A program made the translations under genes and the position numbers. From NCBI GenBank assembly GCA_017464805.1, contig JAFTYE010000010.1:1-64000 (forward strand): a DNA stretch of 64,000 bases. The letters are read 5' to 3'. The stretch comes from Clostridia bacterium (GTDB lineage: Bacteria; Bacillota; Clostridia; Oscillospirales; CAG-272). The notes beneath the pieces are model-generated. The model was not told the origin of the DNA and searched no databases. It was given only the letters and a program-made list of their open reading frames with translations. Positions 36,470 through 46,848 of the stretch are shown here, piece by piece; within the stretch, counting starts at the first letter, position 1, and each line of letters begins with the position of its first letter.

Positions 36470-36551
36470 GCGGGTGTGGCGGAATGGCAGACGCGCCAGA
36501 CTTAGGATCTGGTGTCCATACGTGCAGGTTCAAGTCCTGTCACCCGCACCA
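36470..36551 (+). tRNA. tRNA-Leu(TAG)
   Basis: 82 bases: acceptor GCGGGTG/CACCCGC, anticodon stem CCAGA/TCTGG with loop CTTAGGA (anticodon TAG), a long variable arm (TGTCCATACGT) as expected for a class II tRNA, T-arm with TTCAAGT, and encoded CCA. Confidence 0.95.
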
Positions 36552-36606
36552 TGCGGAGTATCCTTATAGGATTTGAGAATCCTGTAATGGATACTCCGCA
36601 TTTTTA
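36551..36606 (+). terminator. tRNA-Leu terminator
   Basis: ATGCGGAGTATCC and GGATACTCCGCAT form a 13-base-pair outer stem with an inner AGGATT/AATCCT stem, followed by TTTTT. It fills the gap between the tRNA and the recombinase stop. Confidence 0.88.
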
Positions 36607-36619
36607 TTTTCTGCAAAGT

Positions 36620-38326
36620 TCATACTGCGATTTGTGCCGGGGCGTAGCTGACAGCTACGCCTTTTCTCGTTTCCATGATGATGTCGGCCTCCGGGATCAT
36701 TTTGCGGTCTGGCACATCGAAAGCGCCGATGCAGTTGTAATAGATAACCACCCGCTGATTGGTAACACCATCCTGCTTTTCAGCATGGTATACATCGATG
36801 TGGTCGATCAGCTCAGCCACCATACGCTGAGTGATGGTGGTTGCGTTAGTGTAGCGGCGTACAGTTTCCAAAAACTCCTCCACATCCATGCGCTGCCCCT
36901 CCGTCTTTTTCAGTTCAAGCCGTAGGGTCTTGACCTTTGCGCCGATCTCGCCCTGTTCCTGCTCGTACCGCTTGGACATTCGTGCAAACCGGGCATCGTC
37001 GATCTTGCCCGCTACATTGTCCTCATACAGCCTTTCAAAGAGCATATCCAGTTCCTTATCACGGGCCAGCAGAGCGTTTAGCTCCCGCTGTTTTCTTGCC
37101 CGGTCATTATCTGCGACCTTGGCTGAGCGACCCAGCATAGCTTTTACAAAATCCTGCTCATATTCGTTGGCAAAGGCAGTTAGGCGATTGACCTCGTACA
37201 GCACCACTTGTTCCAGAAAATCCAACCGAATATAGTGCGTGGCAGAACACTTCCGCAAACCGGAATTATGGTTCTTGCAACTGAAAAACTTAATGTCATG
37301 GTTTTTCTGATTAAAGTGGAAGTTGAGGTTGCCGCCGCACTCCGGGCATTTTAGCCGCCCGGAGAAGATACTTGGCTCCTGTGTAACCGTCGGCTTTTTG
37401 CGCCGTGTGCCTTTCTGCAAGGTTTGTACCTTTTCCCATGTGGGTCGGTCAATGATCGGCTCATGGACATTGAGGAAGATTGCCCGGTTTTCTTCCGGGG
37501 TTTCAATACGGCGTTTCATTTTATAGGACTTGGAATAACTCTTGAAGTTGATAACATCGCCGCAGTATTCCTGCAAGGTGAGAATTTTCTTGATAGTGGT
37601 ATGTCCCCACTTGGTTGGCTCCAAGGTGCTTTTGGAGCCGCTGCGGTTGATACCCTTGCTCCGCCAGTAGTAGGTAGGATTGACGATGCCATCCGCACCC
37701 AAGGCGGCAGCAATCTCCGCCAGACCATATCCCATTAAAGCCATATCGTAGATACGCCGTACCACATCCGCAGCCTCGGGATCAATCACCCAATACCGGG
37801 GATCTTCCGGATTCTTTGTATAACCATAGGGCGGCTTCGACAGCGGAATACCCGCATTGCCTTTTATCTTGTTGACAATTTTCCGTTTCTTCGAGATGTC
37901 CTTGGCATACCACTCGTTCATGATATTGCGGAACGGGGTAAACTCATTGTCGCCCTCGTCACTGTCCACACCATCGGAAATAGCAATCAAGCGCACATCA
38001 CGCTGCGGAAAAAATTCTTCTGTAAGCTTACCGACTTCTATGTAGTTTCGGCCCAGCCGGGAGAGGTCTTTGACAAATACGGCAGAGATATACCCGGCCT
38101 CGATAGCGGTTATCATTTTTTGAAAGCCGGAACGCTTCATGGTAGTTCCTGTGATGCCATCATCCACAAAGAAAATGGTATCGGTATAGCCTTTCTCTTT
38201 TGCTACCTTTTGCAATAGCTTTTTCTGATTTTGGATGCTGTTGGACTCTGTATCCATATTGTCATCACGGCTCAAGCGACAGTAAAGGGCGGCAGTGCCA
38301 AAATTGCGATTATCCGATCTTTTCAA
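36620..38326 (-). CDS. Large serine recombinase
   Basis: 568 residues. The proposed TTG start (LKRSDNRNFG) has AGGAGG five bases upstream. Resolvase domain with catalytic Ser19 in YCRLSRDD and DLSRLGRNYIEVG; recombinase domain (PPYGYTKNPEDPRYWVID); zinc ribbon CPECGG ... FFSCKN ... LRKC; long coiled coil, then a C-terminal domain. It resembles TnpX/Tn4451- and Tn5397-type enzymes. It converges on tRNA-Leu with 68 bases between. All parts are intact, unlike the paralogue at the window start, to which it aligns over the full shared length. Confidence 0.93.
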   Translation of the reverse strand: MKRSDNRNFGTAALYCRLSRDDNMDTESNSIQNQKKLLQKVAKEKGYTDTIFFVDDGITGTTMKRSGFQKMITAIEAGYISAVFVKDLSRLGRNYIEVGKLTEEFFPQRDVRLIAISDGVDSDEGDNEFTPFRNIMNEWYAKDISKKRKIVNKIKGNAGIPLSKPPYGYTKNPEDPRYWVIDPEAADVVRRIYDMALMGYGLAEIAAALGADGIVNPTYYWRSKGINRSGSKSTLEPTKWGHTTIKKILTLQEYCGDVINFKSYSKSYKMKRRIETPEENRAIFLNVHEPIIDRPTWEKVQTLQKGTRRKKPTVTQEPSIFSGRLKCPECGGNLNFHFNQKNHDIKFFSCKNHNSGLRKCSATHYIRLDFLEQVVLYEVNRLTAFANEYEQDFVKAMLGRSAKVADNDRARKQRELNALLARDKELDMLFERLYEDNVAGKIDDARFARMSKRYEQEQGEIGAKVKTLRLELKKTEGQRMDVEEFLETVRRYTNATTITQRMVAELIDHIDVYHAEKQDGVTNQRVVIYYNCIGAFDVPDRKMIPEADIIMETRKGVAVSYAPAQIAV

Positions 38327-38540
38327 AATATCCTCCTTCCTCGGGGATCGGACAATCAATATTTCCATCTATATTATACCTCAGCCTGCCCCCATTGTTA
38401 AGTCTGTCGCCGCTTTCCATATCCGCCAGCATGAGCTTTAGGAGAATGTCCTCCATCGTTTCACCCGACCTTTTGTCCTTATAGACCGGAGTGACGATGA
38501 AATTGATTTTTCCAACTTGATAGGTATACTGTTCCGGCAT
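38310..38540 (-). CDS. TnpW-like transposon-encoded small protein
   Basis: 76 residues from MPEQYTYQVGK after AAGGAGG. YTYQVGKINFIVTPVYKD and a GETMEDILLKLML helix resemble the TnpW-type proteins encoded before TnpX-like recombinases. It overlaps the recombinase start by 17 bases, so the pair is translationally coupled. Its role in transposition is unknown. Confidence 0.75.
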   Translation of the reverse strand: MPEQYTYQVGKINFIVTPVYKDKRSGETMEDILLKLMLADMESGDRLNNGGRLRYNIDGNIDCPIPEEGGYFEKIG

Positions 38541-43216: not shown

Positions 43217-43498
43217 AAGTAAACCTCCGTTCATATTTCAACCCAATCCCCCCCGCCCTTTCCCAATCATGGGAAAGGGGCGGCTCTGGAGGATATACCC
43301 CCGCCGCGCCGCCGGGAAATAGAACAGCCGGGGCCGCCAGTCAAGGGCAAACCGCCGATAAACGGCAGTGCTGATGCACCCTTGACAGACAGCTCCCGGC
43401 TGTTCTGAACGATATGCGGCGACGGAGGATATACCACCGAGAGCCATGTTTAGGTGAAACGCTTTGGGACAATTTGTCCCAAAATCTAGAAAATCCTA
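43217..43498. other. GC-rich non-coding stretch with cruciforms
   Basis: AGAACAGCCGGG (43321-43332) pairs with CCCGGCTGTTCT (43395-43406), enclosing TCAAGGG/CCCTTGA (43341-43347, 43379-43385). CGCCCTTTCCC/GGGAAAGGGGCG lies at about 43255-43282, and GGAGGATATACC is repeated at about 43289 and 43425. A 69-codon open frame here has no ribosome binding site and is read as chance. Confidence 0.5.
43463..43483. repeat. Palindrome GGGACAA-T-TTGTCCC, copy 3
   Basis: TTTGGGACAA, T, TTGTCCCAAA: perfect 10-base arms about a single base, 16 bases before the -35 of the DUF5343-like operon. Confidence 0.88.
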
Positions 43499-43542
43499 TT
43501 GAAAAATTCCAAATCATGAGTTATAATATAATTAAATCATGA
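43499..43542 (+). promoter_or_regulatory. Promoter with flanking operator-like repeats, DUF5343-HEPN module
   Basis: TTGAAA (43499), 17 bases, TATAAT (43522-43527). AAATCATGA occurs as a direct repeat at 43511-43519 and 43534-43542, on both sides of the -10 box, and contains the palindrome TCATGA. A bound regulator there would block transcription. Confidence 0.7.
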
Positions 43543-43558
43543 TTAAGGAGTGAAAAAT

Positions 43559-44254
43559 GTGGCTGAAAAGCAATTTTATCCTGCAATTTCCGAAAAAAGC
43601 TGGTGGCAACTTCGCAGTCAGTTTAAGAAAACAATCCCATCTGTTGTCAATGTGAGTTATTTGAAATCGTTGCTTAGTTTAAATTCAGATCAATCAGCGC
43701 GAAACATTTTAGCTCCTCTCAAACAAATGGGGATAATTGATACGGACGGAAAACCGCAACCACGGGCAACTGATTGGAGAAGTGACGTCAAATATCCAGA
43801 TGTTTGTTCCGCTATTATTTCCGAAATCTATCCTCAGGAGTTACTGGATCTTTTCCCTGACGCACAAGTTGATAATGCAACGGCAAAGTCTTGGTTTATG
43901 GACACCTGTTCCTTAGGTGATAATGCCGCTGGCAAGATTACCTCGACGTTTTCTATGCTGAAAAGTGGCCAGATTAAATCGGACGCTGATGTTACAAAGG
44001 CCTCAGCATCGCCTAAAAAAGCCAAGTCAAATAAACCCCAGAAAAGTATTCCAGCTGACAATGCTAACAAACCTGTTTCTGCATCCCCTATGCCAGCTGT
44101 TGATGTAAATACCCCCACCATACCTGCCTCCGCTGCTTCTCCTACTCCATCGGTACATATTGATTTGCAAATTCATATTTCACCCGATGCGTCTCCGGAG
44201 CAGATCGATAGTATTTTTGCCAGCATGGCTAAACATCTTTACGGTAGATCTTAA
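43559..44254 (+). CDS. DUF5343-like DNA-binding/adaptor protein of a two-gene module
   Basis: 231 residues from a GTG (MAEKQFYPAIS) eight bases after AAGGAG. Residues 1-125 resemble the winged-helix-like DUF5343 domain (ISEKSWWQLRSQFKKTIP, NILAPLKQMGIIDTDGKP). A low-complexity Ala/Pro/Ser/Lys linker (about 130-195) leads to a conserved-looking end HIDLQIHISPDASPEQIDSI. Its stop shares a base with the next ATG, so the two are coupled. It may sense or restrain the HEPN-like partner; this is inference. Confidence 0.75.
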   Translation: MAEKQFYPAISEKSWWQLRSQFKKTIPSVVNVSYLKSLLSLNSDQSARNILAPLKQMGIIDTDGKPQPRATDWRSDVKYPDVCSAIISEIYPQELLDLFPDAQVDNATAKSWFMDTCSLGDNAAGKITSTFSMLKSGQIKSDADVTKASASPKKAKSNKPQKSIPADNANKPVSASPMPAVDVNTPTIPASAASPTPSVHIDLQIHISPDASPEQIDSIFASMAKHLYGRS

Positions 44255-44757
44255 TGGACAATGCTATTTTTTTGAAAGCTCAAATGCTTCAAGAGGACAT
44301 TGATGCTTGTTCTGGGGTTCTACCGCGAAAAGATGCAGGAAGCCGACCCTCAGTTGATTTTTTTGATCAACTGATAACAGATAAGGCACTCCGAAAAACA
44401 GTAGAAAAACTATACCGAGATGGCCACCATGCTCGCGCTGTTGAGGAAGCGTACAAGTTCATAGATAACTTGGTCAAAAGGACAGCAAAGCAAAGCGAAA
44501 CCAATCTAACTGGTTCTAAGCTGATGACGGCGGTCTTTAGTGGGAATGCCCCCATATTAAAGATTAACGCCGGAGAAAGTACCTCAGAGCGAGATGAACA
44601 AATTGGATATATGCAAATCTTTTCCGGATGCATGACAGGTATAAGAAATCCTCGTGCCCATGAGTGTGATTGGGAAGATAGTGAACAACGCGCCTTACAA
44701 CTTCTTGTTTGGGCAAACCATTTAGTCGAGAGGATACATCTATCCGAGAAGGCTTAA
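44254..44757 (+). CDS. HEPN-like (TIGR02391/Ymh-type) putative ribonuclease
   Basis: 167 residues, all-helical. DGHHARAVEEAYKFIDNLVK and GYMQIFSGCMTGIRNPRAHE match the TIGR02391 (Ymh) family pattern. R131-NPRA-H136 is an R-X4-H motif as in HEPN ribonucleases that cleave RNA in toxin-antitoxin and abortive-infection systems. Coupled to the DUF5343-like gene, at the end of the mobile region, followed by a tRNA 3'-end scar and terminator. Confidence 0.78.
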   Translation: MDNAIFLKAQMLQEDIDACSGVLPRKDAGSRPSVDFFDQLITDKALRKTVEKLYRDGHHARAVEEAYKFIDNLVKRTAKQSETNLTGSKLMTAVFSGNAPILKINAGESTSERDEQIGYMQIFSGCMTGIRNPRAHECDWEDSEQRALQLLVWANHLVERIHLSEKA

Positions 44758-44825
44758 GAGAAATACTGATTGCCGACTACCCGATAACCATTTTTGTACT
44801 TTCGATATCGTAGAATCCTATAATT

Positions 44826-44837
44826 GCACTCCGACCA
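44826..44837 (+). other. Displaced tRNA-Pro-like 3' end, candidate attachment-site scar
   Basis: GCACTCCGACCA followed by TATCGAGTGTTC. The intact tRNA-Pro of this window ends CACTCAGACCA and continues TATCGAGTGTTC, with 26 of 28 bases equal over the tRNA end plus hairpin arm. Upstream the match to a tRNA T-arm stops (GAATCCTATAATTG), so only an acceptor end remains. Confidence 0.7.
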
Positions 44838-44994: not shown

Positions 44995-46848
44995 ATGAGC
45001 AGACAAAATTCGTTTATACGAAGTACCAATAATCGTTGTTGTAACTGTAGTCCAAGTAGCTGTAAACAGAAGACTTGCCGCGATGACGATAAAGATAAAA
45101 ATCCGTGTACGGTCTGCCCACCCGGTCCGCAGGGTCCTGCGGGCCCTCAAGGCCCTGTCGGCCCTCAAGGTCCTGCAGGTGATGTAGGCCCTCAAGGCCC
45201 GCAGGGGCTCACGGGCGCAGTAGGGCCTACCGGACCCCAAGGTCCTATCGGTCCACAAGGTCCGGTTGGCGAAGCTGGTCCTGCCGGTCCACAGGGCCCT
45301 GCCGGTGCTGTTGGTTCGATCGGCCCTCAAGGCCCTATAGGTCCTCAGGGTCCTGCGGGTGACGTTGGCCCTGTCGGTCCACAGGGACCCGCTGGTGCTA
45401 CGGGTCCTGCCGGTCCACAGGGCCCTGCCGGTGCTATTGGTCCCACCGGTCCTCAAGGTCCTGTCGGTGATACGGGTCCGATAGGTCCCCAAGGCCCTAT
45501 GGGGGAGACCGGACCTATCGGTCCTCAGGGCCCTGCGGGTCCGCAAGGACTTACCGGTCCTCAAGGTCCTGCGGGTGACGTTGGCCCTGTCGGTCCACAA
45601 GGTCCTGTAGGCAATACCGGTCCTGCAGGCCCGCAGGGGCCCGCAGGCGAAGCCGGTCCTGTCGGTCCACAGGGACCCGCCGGCGCTACGGGTCCTGTCG
45701 GTCCTCAAGGCCCCATAGGCCCACAGGGCCCTGCCGGTGATATCGGTCCTGCCGGTCCACAGGGCCCTGTCGGTGCAGTTGGCCCTGCCGGCCCTCAAGG
45801 CCCCACGGGTCCGCAAGGTCCTGCCGGTGAAGTCGGTCCTGCCGGTCCTCAAGGTCCTGCGGGTGAGACCGGTCCTGTCGGCCCTCAAGGCCCCACGGGT
45901 GCTATCGGTCCTGCCGGTCCTCAGGGTCCTGTCGGCGATACGGGTCCTATGGGTCCCCAAGGCCCTATGGGAGAGATCGGGCCCATCGGTCCGCAAGGTC
46001 CCGCGGGTCCGCAAGGACTTACAGGTCCGCAAGGCCCTGCGGGTGATGTTGGTCCCGCAGGTCCGCAAGGTCCTGCCGGAGATACCGGTCCTGCCGGTCC
46101 GCAGGGACCCGCAGGAGATGTTGGTCCTGCCGGTCCTCAGGGGCCCGCTGGCAGTATTGGTCCCGCAGGTCCGCAAGGTCCTACCGGTCCGCAAGGTCCT
46201 GCCGGTGACGTCGGTCCTGTCGGCCCTCAAGGTCCTGCGGGTGATACAGGTCCTGTCGGTCCGCAAGGTCCCGCAGGTCCGCAAGGCCCTGTCGGTGATA
46301 CGGGCCCCGCGGGTCCGCAAGGCCCCGCAGGTTCTACAGGCCCCGTCGGTCCGCAAGGCCCCGTCGGTCCCCAAGGCCCCGCCGGAGAGACGGGTGCACA
46401 GGGTCCGCAGGGACTTCCGGGAGGAGTATTGAGCTATGCTGATTTTTATGCCTTGATGCCTCCCGACAACTCGGCAACGGTTGCTCCCGGAACGGATGTC
46501 AGCTTCCCCCAGAATGGTCCGATAGCCAACACGAATATCGGACGACTCGGTCCGTCATCGTTCAATCTTGGAGCGATCGGAACCTATCAGATACTGTTCC
46601 AGGTCAGCGTTACCGAGGCGGGACAGCTGATCCTAACCCTGAATGGTCAAGACTTGGCATATACCGTCGCAGGTCGCGCCACAGGCACATCGCAGATCGT
46701 GGGTATGGCGGTCGTGACTACCACGGCGGTCAACTCGGTTTTGACGGTTCGCAATCCGGCAGGGAATGCCGCCGCGCTTACCATCACTCCTCTTGCCGGA
46801 GGAACTCGTCCCGTGTCCGCACATCTTGTGATCACGCAGATTGGATAA
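44995..46848 (+). CDS. Collagen-like protein with BclA-type C-terminal domain
   Basis: 617 residues from [10 protein letters not shown] after AAAGGAG. A Cys-rich N-terminus ([17 protein letters not shown]) is followed by an uninterrupted run of Gly-X-Y triplets, mostly GPQGPxG, to about residue 478. The last 139 residues ([15 protein letters not shown], then ITQIG) resemble the jelly-roll C-terminal domain of BclA exosporium glycoproteins, which trimerises. It is probably a spore-surface filament. Thr-containing triplets could be glycosylated. The near-repetitive DNA should vary in length between strains. Confidence 0.88.

Follow-up and report, generated by a model that had tools for sequence, protein, structure and literature searches.

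Two coupled genes lie on the forward strand of the window, the whole 64,000-nucleotide stretch of the Clostridia contig JAFTYE010000010.1 analysed here. Gene A (43559..44254) encodes a 231-aa protein with a DUF5343 head, a linker and a C-terminal tail, and gene B (44254..44757) encodes a predicted 167-aa Ymh-family HEPN protein. Both open reading frames are present and share base 44254, common to the gene A TAA and the gene B ATG, a one-base overlap that bears out the coupling claimed in a preliminary description of this DNA. The listed frame of gene A begins at GTG 43550, which overlaps the AAGGAG ribosome-binding site (43545..43550, forward strand). GTG 43559 lies 8 nt behind AAGGAG and is the likelier start judged from sequence, in agreement with the relatives L014 and L015. 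Genes A and B are real genes under strong purifying selection, with dN/dS of 0.093 and 0.085 for the two genes against the 87%-identical copy in L007.

The pair has the layout of a type II toxin-antitoxin system, two small overlapping genes behind one promoter-like site, and its co-transcription is predicted. The promoter-like sequence TTGAAA-17-TATAAT (43499..43527, forward strand) has 11 of 12 consensus bases; the promoter scan overall found 2 sites, against 3.7 expected in shuffles. A repeat-pair search found two AAATCATGA repeats around the -10 (43511..43542, forward strand), a candidate autoregulatory operator that occurs once in the window and never in 100 shuffles. Promoter and repeats on both sides of the -10 are present as first described. 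By eye, L007 keeps the repeat pair, the remnant L015 retains the first copy alone, and L014 and L008 lack both. The repeats suggest autorepression, with full conservation limited to the closest relative, L007.

Gene A is a DUF5343 protein of three parts. Its domain (PF17278, 43628..43966, forward strand) scores 30.6 bits against a curated Pfam cut-off of 27 (E 4.8e-7), confirming the DUF5343-like assignment made earlier, and the L008 counterpart scores 38.2 bits. DUF5343 is the sole Pfam match at E up to 1; at the same limit no NCBIfam model matches, nor does any Pfam nucleotidyltransferase, the partner expected of MNT-HEPN toxin-antitoxin systems. The linker (43976..44146, forward strand), set apart by composition and dN/dS, is of low complexity as the preliminary description had it, with A/P/S/T/K/N making up 79% of residues versus 41% elsewhere in gene A. 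The C-terminal tail (44147..44251, forward strand), VHIDLQIHISPDASPEQIDSIFASMAKHLYG, is common to the HEPN-paired DUF5343 proteins that we found. Within gene A, dN/dS against L007 is 0.027 in the head (residues 1-139), 0.32 in the linker and 0.021 in the tail, so that head and tail look like working parts and the faster-evolving linker like a spacer. From its sequence pattern the DUF5343 head is probably a winged-helix, nucleic-acid-binding domain; the best E value of gene A in a PDB profile search was 0.1.

Gene B belongs to the Ymh family. It scores 96.4 bits against Hypoth_Ymh PF09509 (Pfam cut-off 25, E 1.3e-27) and 58.7 bits against TIGR02391 (NCBIfam cut-off 39.45, E 5.7e-16), and it carries RNPRAH at residues 131-136 (44644..44661, forward strand), in line with the TIGR02391/Ymh-like second protein with RNPRAH noted at the outset. 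RNPRAH is the predicted HEPN R-x4-H catalytic motif and has the conserved R-x4-6-H form of HEPN RNases; it is invariant in the window, L007, L008 and L014 and is also found in L062. We rejected R-x4-H alone as proof of HEPN, since it arises by chance in 2,820 of 10,000 shuffles of gene B (28%); RN-x3-H arises in 136 of 10,000. The motif draws its weight from Ymh family membership and from invariance in all four aligned Ymh partners. PDB profile searches brought up nothing convincing for either gene, the best E for gene B being 0.0082, to a designed-looking chain, and the predicted HEPN fold is read from family names and motif.

The same adjacent pair recurs in other genomes, as the preliminary description had anticipated. 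Ymh-type pairs occur in L007, from another Oscillospiraceae MAG (88% and 87% identity for A and B), in L014, from another class of the same phylum (50% and 55%), and in L008, an Acidimicrobiia MAG (40% and 41%). We counted partners in three surveys: PF17278 found 3 of 291 genomes above cut-off, alignment A3 found 7 of 398 (E limit 0.001) in a genome set overlapping the first, and PF17278 found 6 of 396 above cut-off in the third. Of the 15 distinct loci in these surveys, 11 have gene A followed by a HEPN-type gene, drawn from three families; the ratio is 9 of 13 once the window and G675, both known from the start, are set aside. The partner is Ymh in the window, G347 and G675; Swt1-like in G220, G235, G467, G588 and G840; and a third type with RNECAH, labelled type 3 in this analysis, in G459, G821 and G900. 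A DUF5343 head alone does not imply the system, since intact A-like proteins in G324 (taken in without a Pfam scan of its own) and G912 had no HEPN-type gene nearby in loci of 3.1-3.4 kb (open reading frames of at least 100 aa, by eye). The G597 and G1020 loci are broken or at a contig edge. PF17278 matches under cut-off in frames of 850 and 1690 aa (L005, L006) were left out before counting, and a DUF5343 and HEPN pair in G338, missed by the A3 survey and found by a tail search in the same group, stands outside the 15.

Pairs are compact and their partners seem rarely exchanged. In 16 listed pairs A and B overlap by up to 26 nt or are separated by up to 16 nt. Swt1 identity comes from Pfam for L002, L003 and L022 and from alignment for L016 and L018. 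No third-type partner passes a Pfam cut-off; L024 reaches DUF4145 at 21.2 versus 23.1 bits, and a type-3 PDB profile search gave a best E of 0.053, to a chain named Dandelion-hepn. Type-3 proteins of L054, L017 and L053 weakly match PADLOC PD-T7-3 (E 2.9e-6, 1.4e-4 and 4.1e-4), and those of L023 and L024 match no PADLOC model; a table entry lists PD-T7-3 with a HEPN domain (PMC10952713). The R-x4-H is invariant in five of five aligned Swt1-like and five of five type-3 partners too. By hhalign, A proteins from Ymh pairs can be matched to those from both other kinds of pair across most of the sequence and through the tail (E 5e-9 and 4e-15). No such match joins the partner profiles (E 0.06 to 0.3, the best covering the R-x4-H stretch alone), which is weak evidence of unrelatedness as these profiles hold just 3 to 5 sequences. 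A tree of 14 heads accommodates the partner labels with 3 changes, the minimum, against a shuffled mean of 7.5 and a value as low in 0 of 200 shuffles. Ymh pairs have their heads in a single clade (100/98) and type 3 needs two changes, with long branches making deeper joins unsure. Pairs thus seem to be kept together once formed, as expected of physically matched proteins.

The C-terminal tail recurs beside nuclease-type genes even where the head changes. Judged from the pattern of 12 aligned HEPN-paired A proteins, it is a short strand-like segment with a helix-like one after it; by eye it is absent from the unpaired G324 and G912 proteins, neither of which is among the tail-search matches. 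With E up to 0.01 as limit, a tail-only profile gave 10 matches in 398 own-phylum genomes (7 of these with E no higher than 7.8e-11) and 7 in 396 genomes of the L008 phylum (6 with E no higher than 5.1e-7). Four weaker matches were taken as chance and left out: three with E between 0.005 and 0.008, and one in a 39-aa frame with E 2.6e-4. As 9 of the 13 strong matches were already in the profile, the new evidence is four loci, and in all four a nuclease-type gene lies directly downstream: type-3 HEPN in G338 and G557, Ymh HEPN in G938, and in G879 the predicted nuclease PF18165 pP_pnuc_1 (E 1.3e-12), which lacks R-x4-H. The G557 protein matches PDC-M34A over the tail alone, and its significant BLAST alignment with L017 A is confined to the tail region. 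Pfam gives no match to the G879 head at E up to 1. Thus neither this head nor that of G557 carries a detectable DUF5343, though either could be a strongly diverged one. The G938 head is broken; in L062, which is from the L008 phylum and has the tail and a Ymh partner carrying RNPRAH, the front part of the first gene does not keep to a single frame, and Pfam matches nothing in the remainder. The role proposed earlier for the HISPDASPEQIDSI end is strengthened, HISPDASPEQIDSI sitting in this tail. The locus L063:754-2194, where a PF18165 predicted nuclease is coupled to a tail protein whose head fits no Pfam family, is possibly a separate system.

The pair lies where a mobile region ends. A single stretch of about 42.75-44.84 kb is common to the window and L007; beyond it they diverge, homology stopping at base 44837 on the tRNA-Pro 3'-end-like CACTCCGACCA (44827..44837, forward strand), the right limit of the shared cassette. 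In the window CACTCCGACCA is followed by a hairpin resembling that behind the window's own tRNA-Pro at 1634-1709 (81%), and in L007 by a different one. This is the trace expected from integration at tRNA 3' ends and supports the placement given in the preliminary description. By eye, more tRNA 3'-end-like fragments with hairpins follow the cassette in L007:3800-4180, as though a single attachment site had taken up several elements in turn. Upstream of the pair lie regulators, a CPBP-type protease gene and then a large serine recombinase (36620..38368, reverse strand) beside tRNA-Leu (36470-36551), a possible mobility gene that may have moved the whole 36.6-44.8 kb region. No direct repeat marks both region ends among the listed 20 of 43 direct families and 25 of 31 inverted pairs. 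One 20-nt inverted pair (36554-36573 / 44814-44833, 80% complementary) joins sequence behind tRNA-Leu to the right end of the cassette. The palindrome TTTGGGACA-NNN-TGTCCCAAA (43461..43483) is one of three near-identical GGGACA-N3-TGTCCC copies (38582, 42869, 43466), all in the mobile region and the only ones in the window; L007 has two. Three congener regions compared as candidate empty sites share just parts of a few window genes, in another order, and Rfam gave one match over 41-46 kb, below its gathering score. Directly 3' of the cassette's tRNA-like end, 44998-46845 (forward strand) encodes a collagen-like Gly-X-Y protein with a BclA C-terminal match of 28.8 bits against a cut-off of 38.

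Relatives of the pair lie inside or beside defence operons. We scanned the neighbours of seven relatives with family libraries, chosen by eye and so not an unbiased sample, and five of the seven adjoin a restriction, BREX or candidate-defence match. L044:35-13246 is a BREX operon in the order BrxC-PglXI-pair-BrxHI-PglZ-BrxA, with a DUF5343 and type-3 HEPN pair between methylase and helicase. The L045 pair adjoins genes matching nicking-endonuclease and cytosine-methylase models, L039 adjoins Mrr, L018 a PDC-S28 match and L002 a PDC-M36A match in a gene without a Pfam match; L003 neighbours a Fic gene and the neighbours of L054 gave no match. Genes beside L008 read as HsdS and HsdM from sequence. 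The defence reading offered at first sight finds support in restriction and BREX genes beside several relatives but not in the window itself, where the seven scanned neighbours (regulators, CPBP-type protease, recombinase, collagen-like protein) include no recognised defence gene in Pfam.

The two genes differ in how widely they are found. A gene A match occurs in 1 of 78 genomes of its own family, the window's own genome. In plasmids, tblastn with A of the window, L008, L002 and L017 found nothing, as did L017 A in phages. Scans of viral contigs, which start from short peptide patterns, found no relative of A, whether queried with the window protein alone or with the aligned proteins of the Ymh, Swt1 and type-3 lineages, nor any of aligned Ymh B. 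Gene B retrieved 80 plasmid and 2 phage records, and L008 B 100 plasmid records. Ymh proteins on four plasmid records measure 236 to 575 aa; DUF5343 is not named among their neighbours in a gene table that is incomplete, and PF17278 finds nothing in the three of these records searched with it. Ymh proteins therefore occur also without a DUF5343 partner. On one Paenibacillus plasmid (L009:4254-8299) a 575-aa TIGR02391 protein lies near an annotated adenylate/guanylate cyclase and a Pycsar effector.

The window pair is a Ymh-HEPN variant of a catalogued candidate. PDC-M34 is a phage-defence candidate in PADLOC-DB v2.0.0, consisting of PDC-M34A and PDC-M34B; the source preprint of the PDCs is reportedly Payne et al. 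2024. Its first gene has a DUF5343 head and the same C-terminal tail, with a HEPN gene directly downstream, but that second gene is a Swt1-like HEPN. Gene A matches PDC-M34A (E 1.2e-12, profile 27-207 of 208; the model has no given curated cut-off), as a diverged member at 46.7 bits versus 275.9 for L002. Gene B matches none of the PDC-M34B models at E up to 1, although the L002, L003 and L022 partners do, and we rejected the identification with PDC-M34 on this second-gene result. The preliminary label "undescribed" therefore holds for the Ymh-HEPN version, which PDC-M34 second-gene models miss, but not for DUF5343 with Swt1-HEPN, already a PADLOC candidate. The missed Ymh-HEPN version suggests that PDC-M34 is under-counted. 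PDCs are described as identified through guilt-by-embedding and as mostly unvalidated in passages of two papers (PMC12988326, PMC10855318).

Three other known systems resemble the pair in part. The Aga_HEPN class II model of PADLOC, a label we take to mean Argonaute-associated, matches gene B (E 3.8e-6) and L008 B (2.4e-16) with its C-terminal part, but none of the seven scanned window neighbours matches a PIWI family. The PD-lambda-3 B model covers the gene B Ymh domain with its C-terminal part only (profile 159-260 of 270, E 4.4e-11), and gene A matches no PD-lambda-3 model; with one subunit lacking we rejected this identification too. A table entry lists a PD-(D/E)XK nuclease in PD-lambda-3 (PMC10952713), and a passage elsewhere presents it as an experimentally used abortive-infection system (PMC13190303). 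Panacea (PanA/PanT) likewise combines one conserved partner with unrelated effectors and has separate neutralising elements attached in line (PMC10440598), but gene A matches DUF5343 alone in Pfam (E up to 1) and partners here are of nuclease type only.

Earlier literature places Ymh among HEPN families linked to conflict. Passages of a 2013 HEPN survey list Ymh with a conserved Rx4-6H and occurrence with R-M genes, and describe it as solo, fused to pMORC, AbiJ-NTD1 or AbiTii, or in operon with R-M; these passages do not mention a DUF5343 partner (PMC3710099). A 2026 BREX survey mentions standalone HEPN modules in one passage, and DUF5343, Ymh, Swt1 and PF17278 are absent from its main text (PMC12839542). 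Our literature search, which did not cover bioRxiv as such, returned no mention of DUF5343, PDC-M34 or TIGR02391, leaving DUF5343 a family without a described function that could be found.

We favour, at somewhat better than even confidence, a two-protein toxin-antitoxin-like abortive-infection module in which A is sensor and keeper and B a HEPN endoribonuclease. Gene B would act through R131 and H136, probably as a dimer. The DUF5343 head of gene A would recognise a cue of invasion, and by way of the AAATCATGA repeats it may repress the operon as well. The linker, being flexible, would provide reach, and the strand-helix tail would bind the nuclease and keep it inactive. On infection the contact between A and B would change, B would cut RNA and the cell would stop supporting the phage. 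We infer the RNase activity, the dimer, the winged-helix head, the tail as contact, the cue and the abortive outcome; the direction of control between A and B would follow by analogy. A sensor-keeper A with its tail as contact is the most economical reading, by analogy with modular antitoxins, where passages on Panacea describe an in-line neutralising element on a presumed sensor (PMC10440598).

The strongest competitor, which we consider unlikely, is a plain type II addiction module that keeps the mobile element, with A as antitoxin and autorepressor, B as RNase toxin and no dedicated phage sensing. Gene order, overlap, small size, an own promoter with operator-like repeats, the position at a cassette end and the patchy distribution (the single match among own-family genomes) would all suit it. 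Several relatives inside or beside restriction and BREX genes fit defence better, however, the very conserved head suggests more than repression, and A of three lineages has no match in the plasmid collection, mostly from cultivated bacteria, where addiction modules are usual. Less probable still is that A recruits: its head would locate a transcription complex, or DNA that is foreign or unmodified, and its tail would bring the HEPN RNase to phage RNA, with B alone non-toxic and cells surviving. Head conservation, embedding in R-M and BREX operons, and a tail common to different heads and nuclease-type partners speak for recruitment; against it, survey passages describe HEPN domains in R-M and Abi settings as largely suicidal or dormancy-inducing RNases (PMC3710099). 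A regulatory or housekeeping RNA-processing unit without a role in conflict is very improbable: B toxicity is a prediction and the scanned window neighbours are of the kinds listed above, but the mobile setting, patchy occurrence, restriction and BREX neighbours of relatives and the Ymh match in PD-lambda-3 oppose it.

Beyond the abortive-infection reading of this one pair, the tail may be a transferable docking module. In this broader proposal, to which we give slightly less than even weight, the tail would plug different heads (DUF5343 and at least two without detectable DUF5343) into different downstream nucleases (Ymh-HEPN, Swt1-HEPN, the third HEPN-like family and the PF18165 predicted nuclease), the tail controlling the nuclease and the head setting the trigger. 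The window pair would then exemplify a combinatorial class of two-gene defence systems that has gone unrecognised, and what may be new in kind is the tail as a plug common to them. The shared tail offers a testable rule for how sensor proteins could be connected to interchangeable nucleases, and it can serve as a short probe for further such systems with any head or effector.
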